From Candidatus Helarchaeota archaeon (GTDB lineage: Archaea > Asgardarchaeota > Lokiarchaeia > Helarchaeales > HEL-GB-A): DNA of 26,067 nt. The first letter of the stretch is position 1, and every line of letters starts with the position of its first letter. Below, one piece after another: positions 3,398 to 12,743 of this stretch. The stretch spans positions 1-26,067 of the forward strand of contig JABXJT010000067.1 in the NCBI GenBank assembly GCA_013375455.1. Reading direction: 5' to 3'. The position numbers and the translations under genes are program-made. Below the pieces are notes generated by a model. It ran no database searches and had not been told where the DNA came from. It worked only from the letters and a program-made list of their open reading frames with translations.

Positions 3398-3560
3398 TTT
3401 AGCTTCTCCTTTTTAAGCCTCACTTCTCAGAATCGAACGAAATAAGTTCCTAAATTCCAAGCTTTCTAGTATAAAATTCATTGATATTTAAAAATTAGGT
3501 GTTAAATTAAAAAAAACGCCTCCTTTTTTAATATTCAGTTAATTTGTCCAACCTTCTAAT

Positions 3561-3600
3561 TAGTTATAAAAGCCTATAAAATGTTATAAAAAGCTATAAG
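3561..3600 (+). repeat. Left array: four degenerate 10-bp TATAA repeats
   Basis: Four consecutive 10-base units read TAGTTATAAA, AGCCTATAAA, ATGTTATAAA and AAGCTATAAG. The consensus is A-N-G-Y-TATAA-R. This is the reverse complement of the right-hand array unit (AAGTTATAAA when read on the minus strand), so the two arrays are inverted relative to each other around the GC-rich island. Confidence 0.8.
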
Positions 3601-4030
3601 CTTCTATGCCAATTCTCCATCTACCCGATCGCGAGTAGACCCGCCGTAAGGTTATCTGGCGGTACGCCCGTCGCCGGGTTCAAGCCATCCAGCGCGCTAT
3701 CGAAAACTACCAAGAGCTACCTCTTATGGTTTATCGCTGGGTCTGGAGACCTGAAGGGAGTTACCCCACGCTACTCAAAGGGCGCCTGAATTCTTACTCC
3801 ATTCCTAGGAGGGACTGCTCGGGTTCAAACGGGGCTTTCGAACGTCCCCGACTCGTGCAACTAACCACTAAGAACGGGGGGATCAAGATCCTGAAATTCA
3901 AGTGCTCTTTAAGTAATATACTCACATCAAGAGAACTAATGTGGTCAGCTATCGTAAGGGCGCCCTTCTATTTAAACCCTTCGGAACGATTTGCGCATTT
4001 CCCTCATTTGCGCATTTTCTTTGGGAGATT
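3601..4030. other. GC-rich island of unknown nature (possible structured RNA or foreign insert)
   Basis: About 430 bases clearly richer in G+C than all neighbours; by hand count 36 of 60 bases at 3661-3720 are G or C. It contains many potential hairpins: CCGCC...GGCGG (about 3641-3662), GGTCTGGAGACC (3740-3751), CGGGG...CCCCG (about 3830-3850) and the perfect palindrome AAGGGCGCCCTT (3956-3967). A frame running from ATG 3606 to 4037 is interrupted only by TAG at 3636-3638. Its translation is Arg/Trp-rich and resembles no family I know. I found no RNase P CR-I/CR-V motifs, no SRP GGAA domain and no tRNA. A non-coding RNA or imported DNA are both possible. Confidence 0.45.
3989..4018. repeat. 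Direct repeat of ATTTGCGCATTT within the island
   Basis: ATTTGCGCATTT occurs at 3989-4000 and again, preceded by C and followed by T, at 4005-4018. The two copies are spaced about 17 bases apart, and each centres on the palindrome TGCGCA. They lie at the right edge of the GC-rich island, just before the 10-bp array. The arrangement resembles a pair of protein-binding sites, but no binder is known. Confidence 0.55.
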
Positions 4031-4110
4031 TTTATAACTTTTTATAACTTTTTATAACTTTTTATAACTTTTTATAAGTTTTTATAAGTTTTTATAAGTT
4101 TTTATAAGAT
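4031..4110 (+). repeat. Right array: eight tandem 10-bp repeats
   Basis: Perfect 10-base periodicity: TTTATAACTT four times (4031-4070), TTTATAAGTT three times (4071-4100), then the degenerate unit TTTATAAGAT (4101-4110). The C-to-G change at position 8 is shared by the last four units, which suggests stepwise duplication. Read on the minus strand the unit is AAGTTATAAA, matching the left array at 3561-3600. The 10-bp period is close to one helical turn, so A/T tracts are phased and the DNA may be curved. Each unit also resembles an archaeal TATA box. Confidence 0.95.
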
Positions 4111-4181
4111 ATTGACTTACAGTTCAAACGATATATTTCAAGTCATAATCCTTTTAACAAAGAATTAAGTTCTTGTTAGTG

Positions 4182-5154: not shown

Positions 5155-5670
5155 CTATTGCTGCAGTTTTATCAGTTCATCAGCAATTCGCCTGAATAAA
5201 TCTTCCACATTCTTCCCAGTTTTTGCCGAGGCTTCAAAGTAAATGGAATGCCTCTTGTTTTTCAGAAATTTATGCGCGTGTGCTTCCTGGACTTTCCTCA
5301 GATCTTGTAAATCAGTCTTGTTTCCCACGACAACGTAAGGAAATTGCGGGTCTAATTGTTGCTGGAGTTTGGAAATCCACGTATCAAGCGTGCCAAAAGT
5401 AACAGGGCGGGTTACATCGAAAATAATTATTGCACCATCCGAACCTTTCAAGTACAAATTTAATTTGGCCTTCCACATGTTCTGGCCACCAATATCCCAA
5501 ATGACTAGACGCGTACTCATATCGGGGAGATCTTTCACCACGAAATTCACGCCGAGCGTTGGGATATAATCCCCCTCGAAAGTATTTTCTACGTATCTCA
5601 GGATTAAACTGGTTTTTCCTACAGCTTCCTCTCCAACAACCACTACTTTAAATCGGTATTCATGCTCCAT
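5155..5670 (-). CDS. Ras/Rab-like small GTPase
   Basis: A 171-residue P-loop GTPase with every G motif. G1 is GEEAVGKT (13-20), with Glu and Ala at the positions of Ras Gly12 and Gly13. The G2 threonine is in YIPTLGVNF (Thr38). G3 is WDIGGQ (58-63), keeping the catalytic glutamine but with the Arf/Gtr-like 'GGQ' form rather than Ras 'AGQ'. G4 is NKTD (117-120) and G5 is SAK (148-150). There is no C-terminal cysteine, so eukaryotic-style prenylation is not expected, and there is no lipid-anchor extension. Expanded Ras-superfamily GTPases are a feature of Asgard archaea. The gene is divergent from the first TPR-longin gene across 121 bases, which suggests shared regulation and a functional link. 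The cellular process is unknown. Confidence 0.92.
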   Translation of the reverse strand: MEHEYRFKVVVVGEEAVGKTSLILRYVENTFEGDYIPTLGVNFVVKDLPDMSTRLVIWDIGGQNMWKAKLNLYLKGSDGAIIIFDVTRPVTFGTLDTWISKLQQQLDPQFPYVVVGNKTDLQDLRKVQEAHAHKFLKNKRHSIYFEASAKTGKNVEDLFRRIADELIKLQQ

Positions 5671-5791: not shown

Positions 5792-8700
5792 ATGAGTAAC
5801 CTACCGAATCAGGACCCTCAAGAACAAATCAGGGAATTAATCTCCCGTGCAGAGAAAGAAGAAGACACCAATAGTTGGAATGCCGCAATCGAGTTTTTGA
5901 AGGAAGCAGAAAAAAAAGTCCTAGATACAAAAAATAAGGAACTGAAAGGTGAGATTTATTATAAATTGGGGTTGAATTATTATCTTGCTGGAGAATGTGC
6001 AAAATCTAAAGAAAAGGTATTAAAAAGTTATCAGATGGGAATAGAAAATTGGGAAATAGCCAAAAAAATCTTTGAGGAGTTAAAGATAGAAGAACGCGTT
6101 AAGGTTATATCTGGTTTCATTGATTTTTTTACCTATTTATATGGATTTGGAGTAGAAAGAGAAATAAACTTATTAGAATCGGCTAAAAATCACTTTAAAC
6201 AGGCGAAAATACTCTACCAACAACAAGAAAAGTTTCTTGATTCAACCAAGATGGAGATCATGGAGATCAAAACTCTCAGCCAGTTAGTTGGTGAGCGTGT
6301 TGTACGCCATGATGAAAGCGCAGATTTTGAAAAGATGGTGGCAGAATTTGATGGTCTTGTAGTAAATCTGATTGATAGATTGAAAAAAACGCCGCAAATA
6401 CCAGATCATTACCTTCAAAGATTTTTGAGTTGCATGGGATATTGCTTCCATTGGATGGGAACTTATTTATCCACTGACATATTAGACGTTCGAGAACGTT
6501 TACTTGATTTTTTCAATAAACATAAACAAATCATCGATATTATCGATAATTCGGAATTATATTCGAAGTATTCTGAATCTGTATTTTATGCCTACACGAT
6601 TTATGGAACATTCAGTTTAATTATAGGAGCTTACTTCGCAGATGATCAATTTGAGATGAAAATATTATTTCAAAACGCGAAAAAGTGGCATAAAAAAGCT
6701 GAAAAATTTCGAGATAAAGTGCAATTCAACACCTCATTATCAACTTTCTATGTCCTACAGTTTTCCGTTTCAATTGCCTTTGTCAAATTGGGGTATGCTT
6801 CCGCCGACATTAAGCATATAGGGGAACTTCTAACCAATGCAATTGAGTCCCTATCCCTTTTTCATCCAAAGTCAATGGCTGCACACACGATTCTCTCAGC
6901 TTCCCTTGGTTTTGCGATTGGAGCCCTTGATGAGACAAACATAAAACTAACCCGTCTCAGGTCTGCAGACAGGATCTTAAACATTTTAGAATGGGGTAAA
7001 AACGAAATACCAATGCTCACGGATCCAAACTACAAGTTATACAATTTTTTTAGAGATACGGAGTTATGTACCGCCTATGCAATAATGGGGGAACTAGCCG
7101 AGGATAAGAATGAGCGTACTAAGTACGTGCAACAAGCATTGAAATTATTTGATCAAATAATGGAATTCTCCAAGCAAAAACCAATAAGTAATCAATCATT
7201 CTATTTTTACTACTTTTTCATCTCTAGTGCTGCAATTATATTGGCAAAACTCCTCCCAGAGATAGCTGAAAAAAGGAAATATTATGAAATTGCAATTGAT
7301 TTAATTGAAAAAGCCATTAGACTGCCATTCAACTTCCATCGAGACGAAATTGTATTCATGTTAGGCAAAGCATATCATGAGCTCGGCATCTTATTGAATG
7401 ATTCTAAGGTATTGAAGAAGTCTTATCTCGCCTATATGAATGCTATCGAATTCTGCAAGAACAAAGGATTTTATAGCCTTGTCGGATCTGGCTATGTAAA
7501 CCTTGCACAGCTTGAAGATCGGTTGGGAAATTTTCTTTCAGCTGCAGAAAACTATCAAAAAGCAATTAGCTCATTCGATCGGGCATTATTGATGTTTACT
7601 TATACTAAATTAGGGACGAAATTAGAAAAAACGAAGAATTATTTAAATGCCTGGAAATTGATAGAAATCGCCAAATCGTATCACGCACAAGAGGACCACG
7701 GGAATGCGCGTGTTAATTATCAACAAGCTAGTACCATCTTGCAAAAAATCCGGGATTACCGGTTTGAGTCCACTTTCTACGTTGCTTGGAGTGAATTAGA
7801 AAAAGCTGAAGAGTTAAGCAAAGGCAGCAAGCACCAGGAGGCAGCAAAAGCCTATAACACTTCCAGAACTCTATTTCAAGAGGCCATTGACAATTTTAAT
7901 AAATATATGAAAAAAAAGCTGCCGCCTGAAGACATAGAACGCATTTCAAAACTCATTAAAGTAGCAAAAATTCGAGATCAGTATTGCACTGCCCGCCAAC
8001 AAATCGAGACTGCACGACTAGAAAGCATTAAAGGTAATCACTTGTTATCCGCAGAGTTGTATAATAAAGCTGGTTTCATGTTTGAAAATCTCTGTGACGT
8101 ATATAAAATTAAAAAAGAAAAGGATGAACTCTCCGCAATATGCCATTTATGCAAAGCTTGGGAATACATGGCTAGGGCAGAAATGGAACAAGAATCATCG
8201 CTTTACGCCACCGCCTCGAAATTATTTGAAAAAGCAAGCCATATTTTTACCAAGAGTCGCATGAAGAAATTATCCTTGGGCAATTCCCTATATTGTTCTG
8301 CACTAGAAAGTGGAGGTCTCTTTGATAAAACAAGCGACTTTGATGAAAAGCTTAATTATTACAAGAAAATTAAAATGACTTTACGGGAATCTGCAAAAAA
8401 TTATCAATTAGGGGGATTTGTTCAAGACGCACAATGGGCATTAGCGACCTCCACGGTTTTTGATGGCATTTGGCAGCTCATTCAGGTTGATACGGAAATG
8501 GATTTCTCGAAAAAGAATCAATACTTAAGCATGGCAAAGAAATATCTTGATAATGCCTTGCAAATCTTTGAAGAGGCGGGGTATGAACAAAAAAAGGGAG
8601 AAATTTCAAAATATTTAGAAATGATTGACGCCGAAAAAGCCATTCTGACCTCAGCATTAGATGTCATTGAAAAGCCGGCTATTTCAGAAAGTAGCATTGG

Positions 8701-9193
8701 TATCGTGGCTCCATCGTGCCCTATAGAAATTAGCTCTTCATTAAGCATCGATGAAATGGCAAAAAGTGATATGCAGGCAGCGTCCGAGCAAAATTGGTTC
8801 AAACGCATCCATCATCTATACCTCTTCGTACCGGGTGGCCTTTGTATTTACGATTACTCTTTCAAATCTCAAGCAACTGATGAGAAGTCAATCTCCGCCA
8901 GTTTAGTAACCGGTGGCCTTGAGGGCATTTCCCATATGATCCAAGAACTCACGAAGAAAGAAACAAAATTAAGAATCCTCGAACAAGAAGATATCACCAT
9001 TTTACTTGAGCAAGGCAAGAATGTAACATGCGCGTTAATTACGGAGGAAAATTTAGCAACTCTCAGAACGAAATTAAAGCAATTTGTTGGCGAATTCGAA
9101 GAGAATTTCCAAACAGAATTAGAAAAATTTGATGGTAACATCAATATTTTTTCTGATGTGAGCAAATTTGTGCAAGAAATTTTTGAACCGTGA
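5792..9193 (+). CDS. Large TPR-repeat protein with C-terminal longin/roadblock-like domain (copy 1)
   Basis: 1133 residues, soluble, no signal peptide. Residues 1 to ~960 are almost all helical with degenerate TPR-like units, for example WNAAIEFLKEAEK, GSGYVNLAQLEDRLGNFLSAAENYQKAI and GNHLLSAELYNKAGFMFENL. A Ser/Pro-rich linker follows (AISESSIGIVAPSCPIEISS). From about residue 1007 a ~125-residue domain begins with HHLYLFVPGGLCIYDYSF. It has an alpha/beta pattern like longin or roadblock folds: two strands, then 'SISASLVTGGLEGISHMIQ', three strands, then a long final helix. Such domains bind or regulate small GTPases, and TPRs scaffold partners. Its divergent neighbour encodes a GTPase and the next gene is a paralogue. 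The longin call is by pattern, not by search. An effector, GEF-like or scaffold role is inference. Confidence 0.75.
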   Translation: MSNLPNQDPQEQIRELISRAEKEEDTNSWNAAIEFLKEAEKKVLDTKNKELKGEIYYKLGLNYYLAGECAKSKEKVLKSYQMGIENWEIAKKIFEELKIEERVKVISGFIDFFTYLYGFGVEREINLLESAKNHFKQAKILYQQQEKFLDSTKMEIMEIKTLSQLVGERVVRHDESADFEKMVAEFDGLVVNLIDRLKKTPQIPDHYLQRFLSCMGYCFHWMGTYLSTDILDVRERLLDFFNKHKQIIDIIDNSELYSKYSESVFYAYTIYGTFSLIIGAYFADDQFEMKILFQNAKKWHKKAEKFRDKVQFNTSLSTFYVLQFSVSIAFVKLGYASADIKHIGELLTNAIESLSLFHPKSMAAHTILSASLGFAIGALDETNIKLTRLRSADRILNILEWGKNEIPMLTDPNYKLYNFFRDTELCTAYAIMGELAEDKNERTKYVQQALKLFDQIMEFSKQKPISNQSFYFYYFFISSAAIILAKLLPEIAEKRKYYEIAIDLIEKAIRLPFNFHRDEIVFMLGKAYHELGILLNDSKVLKKSYLAYMNAIEFCKNKGFYSLVGSGYVNLAQLEDRLGNFLSAAENYQKAISSFDRALLMFTYTKLGTKLEKTKNYLNAWKLIEIAKSYHAQEDHGNARVNYQQASTILQKIRDYRFESTFYVAWSELEKAEELSKGSKHQEAAKAYNTSRTLFQEAIDNFNKYMKKKLPPEDIERISKLIKVAKIRDQYCTARQQIETARLESIKGNHLLSAELYNKAGFMFENLCDVYKIKKEKDELSAICHLCKAWEYMARAEMEQESSLYATASKLFEKASHIFTKSRMKKLSLGNSLYCSALESGGLFDKTSDFDEKLNYYKKIKMTLRESAKNYQLGGFVQDAQWALATSTVFDGIWQLIQVDTEMDFSKKNQYLSMAKKYLDNALQIFEEAGYEQKKGEISKYLEMIDAEKAILTSALDVIEKPAISESSIGIVAPSCPIEISSSLSIDEMAKSDMQAASEQNWFKRIHHLYLFVPGGLCIYDYSFKSQATDEKSISASLVTGGLEGISHMIQELTKKETKLRILEQEDITILLEQGKNVTCALITEENLATLRTKLKQFVGEFEENFQTELEKFDGNINIFSDVSKFVQEIFEP

Positions 9194-9329: not shown

Positions 9330-12300
9330 GTGGTCGATATGGCAGAAGACATTCAAGCTCAAATAAGCAAACTAATGCAAGGTGCAGAAAAGGCAGAAGG
9401 CGACAATAACTGGAATGCTGCCATCGCTTTATTGAAACAAGCAGAAGAGATTCTTCTAAATAAGAACTTAAAGCAGGATGAGGGAAACGTTTTTTATAGG
9501 TTGGCTAGAAATCATCATCTTGCAGGCGATAGTGCAAAAACTAAAGAAGAAGTTTCTGAAAATTACAAATTAGCGATAGCCTTTTATAAAAAGGCGCTCA
9601 ATATTTTTGAAGAATTAAAAATCGCGGAAAAAAAATTTGCTATATCTGGATTTATTGATTTATTAACATATATTTTTGGATTTGACGTTGGAAACGAAAC
9701 AAGTTTGTTGGAATCGGCTAAAAATCATTTCAAAGACGCCAAGATAATGTATCAACAGAACGGCAATTTACACGATTCTTTCAAAATGGAAATCATGGAA
9801 ACCAGAACTTTGACCCTACTCATAGGGGAATTGACTGCACGCTTTGACCAAGACGTCGATTACAAAAAAATTATCGCTGAATTTGATGCTCTCGTATTAG
9901 ATATGATTGAACAATTAGCTAAGAAGCCAAAATTGTCTGATTATTACCTCCATAGATTTCTGACTTGCATGGGCTACTGCTTCCACTATATTGGAACATA
10001 TGTACCCAATGATATAATCAATATTGAACAACAACTTACCGATATCTTAAATAGAAACCAAAAGATAATCAACATTATCGACAGCACGCGTTCCTATGAT
10101 ACGTATTTTGAGTCGAAATTTTATGTCTGTCTAATACATTCATCGTTCAATTTGATACTTGGAGCATACTATGCAAAAACTCAATTCGAGATTAAAAAGC
10201 TATATAAAAGCGCTAGAAATTGGCATAAACAAGCAGAGGAGCTTCTTCCCAAGAACCAATTCAATACATCAAACTCAACGTTCTACATCTTGAAATTTTC
10301 TATTTCAATTTCTATGATAATTTTGGGGTATTCTTCCAGCGATTTTAAACACGTCGTCCAAATCCTAATTAATGCTATTAATTCTATGACTCTTTTCTGT
10401 CCAAAACCAATGGCAGCACACATGATCGTCGCATCTTGTATTGCCTTTTCGGTTGGGGCCCTTGATGAATCGTCTATCAAAATTCAACGTATGGAGCTTG
10501 CGAAAAGGATCTTGGAAATAATAGATTTTGGAGAAAAAGAAATACCGATGTTTGCTGACCCAAACTATAAACAATATAATTTTATGAAATCCCTTAAATT
10601 GTGTGTCGCTAATGCAGTATTAGGGGATTTGGTCGAAGACAAGGATGAACAGTCTAAATATTTGCAAAAAGCTACTGAATTATTCAAAAAAGTAACAGAC
10701 ATTGCTCAAGAGGGAACGATTAATAATCAAGCGTTTTTTATGTATTTTTATTATTTTTCTTTAATCGGAGTTATATTGGCTAAAAACTCAAAAGAAATAA
10801 ATGAACAAAGGAAATATTATGAGATGACAATTAACCTGCTTGAACATACCCTTGCAATGCCGTTTGATTTCCATCGATACGATAGTCTATTTCTCCTTGG
10901 AAAAACCTATTACGACCTTGGAAAATTATTGACTGACGAGGGTATATTAAAAAAATCTTATCTTGCCTACACGAAAGCTATCGAATTCTGTAAAAAAAGA
11001 GGATTTTATTTTCTAGTTGGATCTGGCTACGTCCAGTTAGCTCAGCTTGAAGACCGGCTAGGCAATTTCCTTTCAGCTGCGGAAAACTATCAGAATGCAA
11101 TCAGCTCCTTCGACCAAGCTCTTCTGGTGTTTACTTTTACTAATTTGGGGAAGAAGATTGAAAAGACAAAGAAGTATTTGTCTGCTTGGAAGTTAATTGA
11201 AATCGCTAAATCATACCACGCACAAGAGGACCACGCAAACGCGCGCCTCAATTATGACCAAGCCAGTGCCATCTTGCAAAAAATAAGAGAGTACCGGTTC
11301 GAATCAACGTTCTACAATGCCTGGAGTGAATTAGAAAATGCGGAAGAACTAAGCAAAGCTAGCAACCATCAAAAGGCCGCAAAAGCTTATGACAGTTCCA
11401 AGACGCTTTTCCAAGAAGCTGTCGATAACTTTAATAAATACTTGAAAAAAAGGCTGCCCCCTTCGGATGAAGAACGCATTTCAAACCTAATCAAAGTGGC
11501 TAGAATTCGAGACCAATATTGTATGGCCCGACAACACATTGAGACGGCACGCGTGGAGAGCATTAGAGGAAATCACATATTATCAGCTGAATTATATAAC
11601 AAAGCTGGTTTTATGTTTGAAAATATGTGCGAAGTATATAAAATTAAAAGGGAAAAAAAAGAACTTTCAGCAATTTATTTCCTATGCAAAGCTTGGGAAC
11701 ACATGGCTAAGGCCGAAAATGAACAAAAACCATCGCTGTACGCAACGGCTTCGAATTTGTTCGAGAAGGCCAGCGGCATTTTTACCAAGAGTCGAATGAA
11801 GAAGTTGTCTCTCGGCAACTCATTATATTGTTCTGCCTTAGAATCTGGGAGTCTCTTTGACAAAACAAGCGACTTAGACGAGAAGATTAAATACTACAAA
11901 AAAATTAAGATGAATTTACGGGAATCTGCAAAAAATTATCAATTAGGGGGGTTTGTTCCAGATGCTCAATGGGCATTGGCGACCTCCACGGTTTTTGATG
12001 GAATTTGGCAACTCATTCAGGTTGATACGGAAGTAGATTTCACGAAAAAGAGTCAATACTTAAGCATGGCAAAGAAATATCTCGATACAGCCCTGAAAAT
12101 CTTTGAAGAGGCGGGGTACGAACAAAAAAAGCACGAAATTACAAAATATTTGGAAATGATTGATACCGAAAAAGCCATTCTGACCTCAGCATTAGACGTT
12201 ATTGAGAAGCCGGCTATTTCAGAAAGCAGTATTGGCATCGTGGCTCCATCATGCCCCATTGAAATCAGCTCCTCGCTTTCTATTGGTGAAATGCAAAAGA

Positions 12301-12743
12301 CAGATATGGAAGCAGAATCCGAACAAAATTGGTTCAAACGAATCCATCATTTATACCTTTTCGTTCCTGGCGGTGTATGTATTTATGATCATCCCTTCGA
12401 ATCTGAAGCGATGGACGACGAATCAGTCTCTGCCAGCTTGGTTTCAGCTGGACTTGAAGGTATTTCTATGATGATTCAAGAAGTCACTAAGAAAGAGACT
12501 AAAGTGAAAATTGTGGAACAAGAAGATATGACAATTTTACTTGAGCACGGGAAAGAAGTTACTGCGGCCCTAATCACTGAGGAGAATTTAGAAACTCTAA
12601 AAACGAAAATGAAGCAATTAATTAATGAACTCGAGGAAGCTTTTCAAACAGAATTAGAAACCTTTGATGGCGATATCACCGTGTTTTCCAAGGCGGAGAA
12701 ATTTGTTCAAAAAATTTTCGTAGAATCGCCAGTCACGGCTTAA
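9330..12743 (+). CDS. Large TPR-repeat protein with C-terminal longin/roadblock-like domain (copy 2)
   Basis: 1137 residues, collinear with the preceding gene over its full length, so it is a tandem duplicate. The N-terminal two thirds have diverged substantially (for example QAQISKLMQGAEKAEGDN against EQIRELISRAEKEEDTN). The last ~500 residues are far more alike. The linker SSIGIVAPSCPIEISSSLSI is identical, and the domain beginning HHLYLFVPGGVCIYDHPF is nearly so. The longin-like domain spans roughly 1007-1130, followed by a short SPVTA tail absent from copy 1. The GTG start at 9330 is favoured by GGTTGGGA seven bases upstream; ATG at 9339 is the alternative. The 136-base gap to copy 1 could hold its own promoter or allow co-transcription. 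The two copies may form heteromers or bind different GTPases. Confidence 0.75.
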   Translation: MVDMAEDIQAQISKLMQGAEKAEGDNNWNAAIALLKQAEEILLNKNLKQDEGNVFYRLARNHHLAGDSAKTKEEVSENYKLAIAFYKKALNIFEELKIAEKKFAISGFIDLLTYIFGFDVGNETSLLESAKNHFKDAKIMYQQNGNLHDSFKMEIMETRTLTLLIGELTARFDQDVDYKKIIAEFDALVLDMIEQLAKKPKLSDYYLHRFLTCMGYCFHYIGTYVPNDIINIEQQLTDILNRNQKIINIIDSTRSYDTYFESKFYVCLIHSSFNLILGAYYAKTQFEIKKLYKSARNWHKQAEELLPKNQFNTSNSTFYILKFSISISMIILGYSSSDFKHVVQILINAINSMTLFCPKPMAAHMIVASCIAFSVGALDESSIKIQRMELAKRILEIIDFGEKEIPMFADPNYKQYNFMKSLKLCVANAVLGDLVEDKDEQSKYLQKATELFKKVTDIAQEGTINNQAFFMYFYYFSLIGVILAKNSKEINEQRKYYEMTINLLEHTLAMPFDFHRYDSLFLLGKTYYDLGKLLTDEGILKKSYLAYTKAIEFCKKRGFYFLVGSGYVQLAQLEDRLGNFLSAAENYQNAISSFDQALLVFTFTNLGKKIEKTKKYLSAWKLIEIAKSYHAQEDHANARLNYDQASAILQKIREYRFESTFYNAWSELENAEELSKASNHQKAAKAYDSSKTLFQEAVDNFNKYLKKRLPPSDEERISNLIKVARIRDQYCMARQHIETARVESIRGNHILSAELYNKAGFMFENMCEVYKIKREKKELSAIYFLCKAWEHMAKAENEQKPSLYATASNLFEKASGIFTKSRMKKLSLGNSLYCSALESGSLFDKTSDLDEKIKYYKKIKMNLRESAKNYQLGGFVPDAQWALATSTVFDGIWQLIQVDTEVDFTKKSQYLSMAKKYLDTALKIFEEAGYEQKKHEITKYLEMIDTEKAILTSALDVIEKPAISESSIGIVAPSCPIEISSSLSIGEMQKTDMEAESEQNWFKRIHHLYLFVPGGVCIYDHPFESEAMDDESVSASLVSAGLEGISMMIQEVTKKETKVKIVEQEDMTILLEHGKEVTAALITEENLETLKTKMKQLINELEEAFQTELETFDGDITVFSKAEKFVQKIFVESPVTA

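Follow-up and report, generated by a model that had tools for sequence, protein, structure and literature searches.

Phased arrays around a GC-rich island

The window (the whole 26,067-nucleotide stretch of Candidatus Helarchaeota DNA that was analysed) contains two phased AT-rich arrays on either side of a GC-rich island. TRF reports at 4029–4107 a 10-mer repeat of 7.9 copies (98% matches, score 137), in which TTATAA recurs eight times at exact 10-bp spacing (4032, 4042 ... 4102), while the longest phased TTATAA run in 1000 dinucleotide shuffles of the window was two. The opposite array at 3565–3599 has a period of 10, 3.5 copies and 80% matches (TRF). Units of the two arrays are oppositely oriented, eight 10-bp units at 4028–4107 facing some four degenerate ones at about 3564–3599: TTATAAAAAS occurs on the minus strand at eight places in 4028–4107 (seven exact, one with a mismatch) and on the plus strand at 3564 (one mismatch) and 3584. 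The island, 3601–4030, has a GC content of 50.5% vs 37.3% for the whole window and is the most GC-rich among 2564 sampled 430-base stretches. The arrays and island described in an earlier note on this DNA are thus borne out by TRF, shuffles and GC sampling, and the inverted orientation that it described by the positions of TTATAAAAAS on both strands. The features, as we read them, are as follows.

3550..4133, minus strand: whole non-autonomous IS200/IS605-type element with its target tetranucleotide (ends aligned with relatives, boundary rule from relatives' empty sites); 580 bp without the TATC target
4130..4133, minus strand: target and presumed TAM, TATC (TATT in most listed left ends of the type)
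4111..4127, minus strand: left-end palindrome region, weakened; about TTTCAACTGTTTGTTGAAA in relatives
4028..4107, minus strand: left-end array, eight 10-bp units TTATAAAAA(S) (TRF, left-end comparison, shuffles)
3969..3976, minus strand: TTTAAATA, read directly, a candidate TATA box for the solo RNA, judged by the archaeal consensus
3923..3943, minus strand: possible 5' hairpin CACAT..ATGTG, at about the same position as a hairpin in relatives
3603..3908, minus strand: remains of the tnpB 3' coding end (residues 414–507 of family protein P0001), with five stops and a frame change (tblastn)
3550..3858, minus strand: omega-RNA (reRNA) region, homologous to the 3' ends of TnpB elements (alignment)
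3617..3774, minus strand: omega-RNA core, positions 1–134 of the 134 of covariance model R1
3564..3599, minus strand: right-end array of four TATA units spaced 10 bp apart (relatives most often show a spacing of 20 bp)
3550..3561, minus strand: right-end terminus AATTAGAAGGTT, common to relatives (end alignment)
3534..3549, minus strand: expected guide, 16 nt flanking the right end, placed by analogy with ISDra2

Among the surrounding genes, a lysyltransferase-like neighbour (Pfam LPG_synthase_C) is matched best in Helarchaeota genome LW55_61 (63%), with further matches in Lokiarchaeia. The plus-strand ORF 2153–2569 looks chimeric: by eye its start resembles the C-terminal end of two large TPR-like proteins, and it closes with the C-terminal part of a glutamate dehydrogenase (PF00208, E 6.5e-30). 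At 5792–9193 and 9330–12743 (+) two similar proteins are encoded in tandem (1133 and 1137 aa), the first with weak TPR and MIT similarity only, below cut-off, and a Ras-like GTPase at 5155–5670 adjoins them.

A search of the window found no Rfam family at gathering score; a permissive search (to E 10) returned four weak matches, all well below their own family's gathering score, and ARAGORN found no tRNA anywhere in the window. The island alone folds moderately better than its shuffles (z -2.0 on the minus strand, -1.2 on the plus). Single-sequence folding leaves the strand of the RNA undecided, and the structural evidence given below is comparative. The ORF at 3726–4037 (+), antisense to the RNA, was taken as spurious.

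The omega-RNA and its conserved fold

Covariance model R1, built from 22 relatives with the window left out, finds the window at full length (89.8 bits, E 2.1e-23). A MAFFT alignment of the 3' ends of the 22 copies and the window (A1) supports six helices, with 98.4% of 744 cells paired. Pairs with change on both sides number 17 of 33, compared with 3.4 in shuffles, none of 500 of which reached as high (these shuffles ignore relatedness), and the signal is lost when pairing partners are slid. In the window all 33 scored pairs form, six of them via double changes; 14 of its 66 paired sites have changed with no pair broken. Random placement of 14 such changes breaks about 10 pairs, and fewer than two were broken in none of 3 x 50,000 simulations. 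A second alignment, A4, fitted to the model structure, gives 34 of 34 pairs with 10 double changes, including helix P3b; since it aligns the window's P3b by structure, the conclusion is drawn from A1.

In relatives from one genome (G005) the RNA overlaps the tnpB 3' end. A structured RNA overlapping the 3' end of tnpB and reaching the right end of the element is what characterises a TnpB-associated omega-RNA (reRNA), and this is what was found. Such an RNA is the guide that partners TnpB, the protein type ancestral to CRISPR-Cas12. The P3b hairpin region of the window is larger by ~25 nt and still folds in the minimum-energy structure. With 58% GC, the window core is the highest of the 89 R1 matches (28–51% in the others), and high GC is not general among them. 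Two GC-rich copies near contig ends in another genome (G029; L143:34-168 and L145:102-237) carry a lengthened P3b hairpin, GGTCACGA..TCGTGACC, which recalls the enlarged hairpin of the window.

The overlap with the gene leaves a coding imprint on the RNA. Across the 134-position core, 30 of 30 full copies (those in which tblastn finds >250 of residues 60–360, stops ignored) carry only multiple-of-three indels. Differences from the full-copy consensus fall on the codon positions as 181:92:169 in full copies and 603:502:583 in solo ones; the window's 15:11:12 is only suggestive. Our inference is that the RNA was under selection once the reading frame had gone, or irrespective of that frame, because the fold has been kept with double changes though the overlapping tnpB frame is destroyed; some of the compensatory changes could predate the loss of tnpB.

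Element ends and insertion sites

The left end of relatives reads TATT, then about R-T-TTCAAC-TGTTT-GTTGAA, then TATAA boxes. From 35 rows returned by a left-end regular expression, nine were dropped by eye as chance, two (L118 and L126) were set apart and 24 were kept. In 22 of the 24, window included, 27 bases separate the target from the first TATAA; the search required at least one TATAA within 80 bases, and the figure speaks to the position of the box, not to its presence. TATAA is found at 27, 37 and 47 in 12 of the 24, and the series in the window runs on to 97. The two rows set apart represent a second, G177-type left end with one TATA at 23, and since both recognised ends of that type are built in this way, the array belongs to the Lokiarchaeia-side copies. 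Right ends of relatives close with AATTAGAAGGTT or a close variant, and their TATA boxes are spaced by 20 in 38 of 62 cases and by 10 in 11 of 62, three of the latter in the window. Given that TATAA positions and spacings are common to the ends of relatives, the inverted arrays are the amplified form of a subterminal signal. At one right end in G005 (L046) four TATA units are spaced 20, 10 and 10, an array expansion like that of the window.

Flank pairs were tested for empty sites in five of eight cases. Related genomes hold empty sites for four of these five elements (L037, L032 and the solos L049 and L142); L104 returned only its own site. The nine empty alleles read TATT in five, TATA in two, GATT in one and unclear in one, the L142 candidates L170–L172 and L174 being left out. 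Flanks are 78–96% identical and are joined by the TATT-like tetranucleotide alone. As judged from these junctions, the relatives follow IS200/IS605 behaviour, with insertion 3' of a short fixed target and no duplication, and precise excision would look alike. For the window element itself, no empty site was located with ten window proteins, which had no shared gene order in 18 related loci.

Hairpins in single-stranded form are present at the ends of relatives (left end of L142, z -3.2; right ends of L049, -3.7, L126, -2.4, and L142, -2.3); the right end of L032 has a weak one (-1.1) and its left end none. In the window neither the left palindrome (z -0.8) nor the right hairpin (z -0.2) gains clearly over shuffles as single-stranded DNA. 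Because these terminal hairpins are weak and the target reads TATC, the window element may no longer move.

The tnpB remains and the family protein

What is left of tnpB in the window, residues 414–507 at 3908–3603, was matched at best tblastn E values of 8e-9 to 1e-4 across five query proteins, and the frame over the RNA is interrupted by the five stops and the frame change. A blastn search of five Helarchaeota/Lokiarchaeia genomes with the island gave two copies, both in G005, where each sits at the 3' end of a TnpB-like gene; early blastn matches in L021–L023 were rejected as similarity to coding DNA. The two G005 proteins are remote TnpB (guided_TnpB at E 7e-9 for one copy, TIGR01766 at E about 5e-7 for both) and score under the curated NCBIfam cut-offs (29.9 and 30.2 vs 32; 35.5 vs 100). 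They belong to a large Asgard TnpB-related group of 1165 homologues at E <= 1e-5, of which 120 were listed (P0001–P0120). Among 38 family proteins, NCBIfam at E <= 1e-3 assigns TIGR01766 to 37 and guided_TnpB to 21; Pfam matches of the family protein are below cut-off, and a PDB sequence search with it gave no match.

RuvC-I D278 and RuvC-II E339 are invariant in all 38 proteins. The family alignment has no evident conserved aspartate at the expected third residue (RuvC-III), where His404 is invariant, and no evident zinc ribbon. Ordinary TnpB is described as having a D-E-D triad and a zinc finger (PMC10711439, in the text available); the family TnpB, in contrast, keeps two residues of the triad and has a histidine at the third site. 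Because neither a RuvC-III aspartate nor a zinc ribbon is evident, nuclease activity of the family protein is not assured. L020:221-1774 is one member of the group with the invariant RuvC-I/II aspartate and glutamate and the histidine at RuvC-III.

Solo relatives and their distribution

TnpB-like relatives occur in 18 of 83 class genomes (E <= 1e-10) and the RNA in the same 18, at at least 80 places when contig-edge fragments are included (up to 40 candidates scored per genome). These protein and RNA counts are not independent, many protein matches being the 3' end that overlaps the RNA. R1 matches per positive genome range from 1 to 33. In the phylum sample, with up to 14 candidates scored per genome, the RNA is present in at least 22 of 227 genomes. 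Viral contigs gave 38 pattern matches for the RNA, none confirmed by R1, and 17 stretches matching TnpB patterns, none confirmed.

In the 89 RNA matches (from 87 sources) a tnpB core lies upstream in 30, part of it in 3 and none in 56; 16 of the 56, with <450 bases upstream, are too short for this test, and the remaining 40 include one duplicate. L157 is the same as L051, and the L142 copy appears in cut form as L029:1-74. Elements with tnpB and both ends recognised (eight) measure 1663–1786 bp. G177, with long contigs, has 15 RNA matches, 12 of them at a full-length tnpB match (three with one in-frame TAG), and the draft assembly G026 has ten with no intact tnpB. Solo copies between recognised ends are 305, 355, 447, 494, 575 and 584 bp long (494 in L049/L050, 575 in L142), and from these differing lengths tnpB was apparently deleted repeatedly. 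One and the same 494-bp derivative is found in L049 and L050, where its right flanks differ (the L050 contig begins at the left end), and L039, flanked differently again, looks like a third copy; the flank common to L049 and L054 probably marks one inherited insertion. Solo copies range from intact to wrecked, with 0–14 broken pairs, and many are decaying.

In a longer tree (314 columns) the G026 and G027 solos group together (8 rows, 100/98; bootstrap not settled), joined less firmly by L142 (G036) and L095 (10 rows, 81/90). A placement of the window inside the solo clade was supported on 134 columns (3 rows, 97/97; 16 rows, 96/97) and unsupported on 314, where its nearest rows carry tnpB and the AU test, on groups named after the first tree was seen, rejected neither the solos without the window (p 0.55) nor with it (p 0.37). 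This placement was not adopted, the window having a long branch and an odd composition.

Identity of the element

We conclude, with a probability of roughly 0.85, that an Asgard IS200/IS605-type TnpB transposon lost its tnpB through an internal deletion and so gave rise to this solo, non-autonomous element. On this reading both ends have been retained, the left one with its TATC target, palindrome region and amplified array of phased TATAA boxes, together with a minus-strand omega-RNA gene that stands alone. Homology, the ends, the lost ORF, the conservation of the RNA fold and the way in which relatives, solo ones among them, insert support this directly. As in PATE/MITE-like elements, no transposase gene is present, the ends are kept and several sites are occupied, the last as seen in the relatives L049/L050 and L142.

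The earlier note had rightly seen one element here. Its core and arrays stand, and its size has to be corrected, the real span of 3550–4133 being slightly larger than was given. Two of the natures that it offered both apply: a small mobile element with terminal arrays, which are subterminal ends of a type with empty sites in relatives, and a non-coding RNA locus, which the covariance model identifies in the core as an omega-RNA. Its opinion that the locus matches no known element type does not hold, as this is an IS200/IS605-type, PATE-like derivative with an omega-RNA. A search of related Asgard genomes with the island, which it proposed as a check, did return copies, two of them in G005.

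Transposase and possible mechanism

No ORF for a Y1 (HUH) TnpA was seen in any frame of the window element, which is accordingly not classed with the autonomous IS605 elements. Among the 83 class genomes 16 have Y1 genes, and 7 of these belong to the 18 that carry the RNA (one-sided Fisher p 0.025, kinship ignored). Eleven loci were scanned out of 38 Y1_Tnp matches: none has both element ends, four (L109, L110, L112 and L222) show isolated one-end motif matches, and no shared autonomous IS605 partner was found among the 11. At L221 (G177:C7) a Y1 TnpA adjoins a 427-aa ORF resembling an ordinary zinc-ribbon TnpB; the same genome also has the 15 RNA matches of the TnpA-less family.

The solo RNA would be transcribed on the minus strand, and the TTTAAATA box at 3969–3976 would fit a start near 3945. 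The earlier note's idea that the arrays are multiplied TATA boxes stays a suggestion; a box similar to TTTAAATA, separate from the arrays and nearer the gene, is seen by eye in several tnpB-bearing relatives. The RNA would take its guide from the flank at 3534–3549 and be bound by TnpB supplied in trans; this complex could then cut the element's own empty donor site, and repair would restore the element. For transposition, a Y1-type transposase would have to be supplied in trans. The arrays look like phased A-tract DNA, and our guess is that the TATAA/A-tract series at the ends makes curved or protein-binding DNA.

Possible function of the solo RNA

The fold looks preserved by selection, which suggests a still functional RNA whose protein partner is probably encoded at another place in the cell's DNA. 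We put a solo RNA working in trans with TnpB from elsewhere at somewhat better than even odds. A wider proposal, that Asgard archaea carry long-lived protein-less omega-RNA elements, guide-RNA parasites whose RNA and ends persist under selection on the fold while TnpB and transposase are borrowed in trans, with the phased end array as part of the recognition signal, is more tentative, and we hold it a little short of an even chance.

The most serious alternative disputes function only. The same kind of element could be a recent relic, a decaying internal-deletion copy with an inactive RNA whose fold was inherited from the tnpB-bearing stage, as the decay of many solo copies, the still visible tnpB remains with their stops and frame change, and the window's weak terminal hairpins would lead one to expect. 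Such a history is, however, hard to reconcile with 14 of 66 paired sites changed in A1 and no pair broken, with a P3b that folds despite its ~25 extra nt, and with five stops in the reading frame over the RNA, and we regard it as unlikely, though it deserves serious weight.

TldR is a TnpB-derived, guide-directed transcription factor of phage and bacteria, and a solo omega-RNA could likewise have been exapted to serve the host, e.g. by guiding a factor of this kind to one of the host's genes. A fold kept without an ORF and a family TnpB with no evident RuvC-III aspartate or zinc ribbon would agree with this. However, an 18-nt stretch over the expected guide (3534–3549) has one match in the window, i.e. 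no second copy there, all 38 family proteins keep RuvC-I D278 and RuvC-II E339, and the multi-copy relatives, some of them solos with empty sites, suit a selfish element; we consider exaptation improbable.

The replication or partition locus also offered in the earlier note, to which the phased AT-rich repeats and a nearby local cumulative GC-skew minimum might have pointed, can be dismissed with near certainty, as a skew minimum is no origin signal in 26 kb where genes run in both directions, the element type is multi-copy in relatives with occupied/empty polymorphism, and in place of the one copy per replicon of an iteron origin the same core reaches 33 matches in one genome (G027), though 5 of the 18 genomes have a single one. 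The copy-number argument therefore applies to the family, not genome by genome, and the comparative data would not bear on a secondary recruitment of this one copy.

For a solo omega-RNA element, the consequences are several. A large Asgard TnpB group gains a curatable RNA family with no Rfam match, whose element ends are known and whose presumed TAM is TATT-like. RNA and coding constraints are otherwise confounded by the overlap of RNA and gene, and covariation in frame-less copies separates them. Solo copies are compact natural scaffolds freed from coding, and they allow a test of whether a guide RNA can be a selfish element by itself, independently of its nuclease.

Comparison with known systems

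Standalone omega-RNA loci with no adjoining nuclease gene were reportedly described for IscB by Altae-Tran in 2021; that resemblance is to loci of a different nuclease family. The open-licence literature searched, in the text available, yielded no study of a solo omega-RNA element or of an Asgard TnpB element.

In ISDra2, as its description in PMC8612924 has it, the TnpB reRNA comes from the tnpB 3' end and the right end, with about 16 nt of guide from the flank, and the element inserts without duplication beside a target motif that adjoins its left end. A donor-joint model has been proposed in which TnpB cuts the empty donor site, favouring restoration (PMC8612924). ISDra2 encodes TnpA and TnpB in cis, whereas the window element encodes neither, and its target is TTGAT, compared with a TATT-like one in the window's family (PMC8612924).

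The nearest named kind is that of the PATEs (palindrome-associated transposable elements) of Haloquadratum walsbyi, notably HqIRS71, which are transposase-free, IS605-related archaeal elements (PMC3119063, as far as its available text goes). They have near-terminal palindromes, which are weak at the ends of the window element, and, like it, a short targeting sequence; that text mentions no RNA for them, whereas the window element has a structured RNA with covariation, an Asgard host and helically phased TATAA arrays (PMC3119063). HqIRS71, in which a C-terminal coding segment is disrupted, may be a further instance of what is seen here, a likeness drawn from its description, not from sequence. 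The Asgard solo omega-RNA element with amplified phased ends is, in this company, a new form of a known kind of element.
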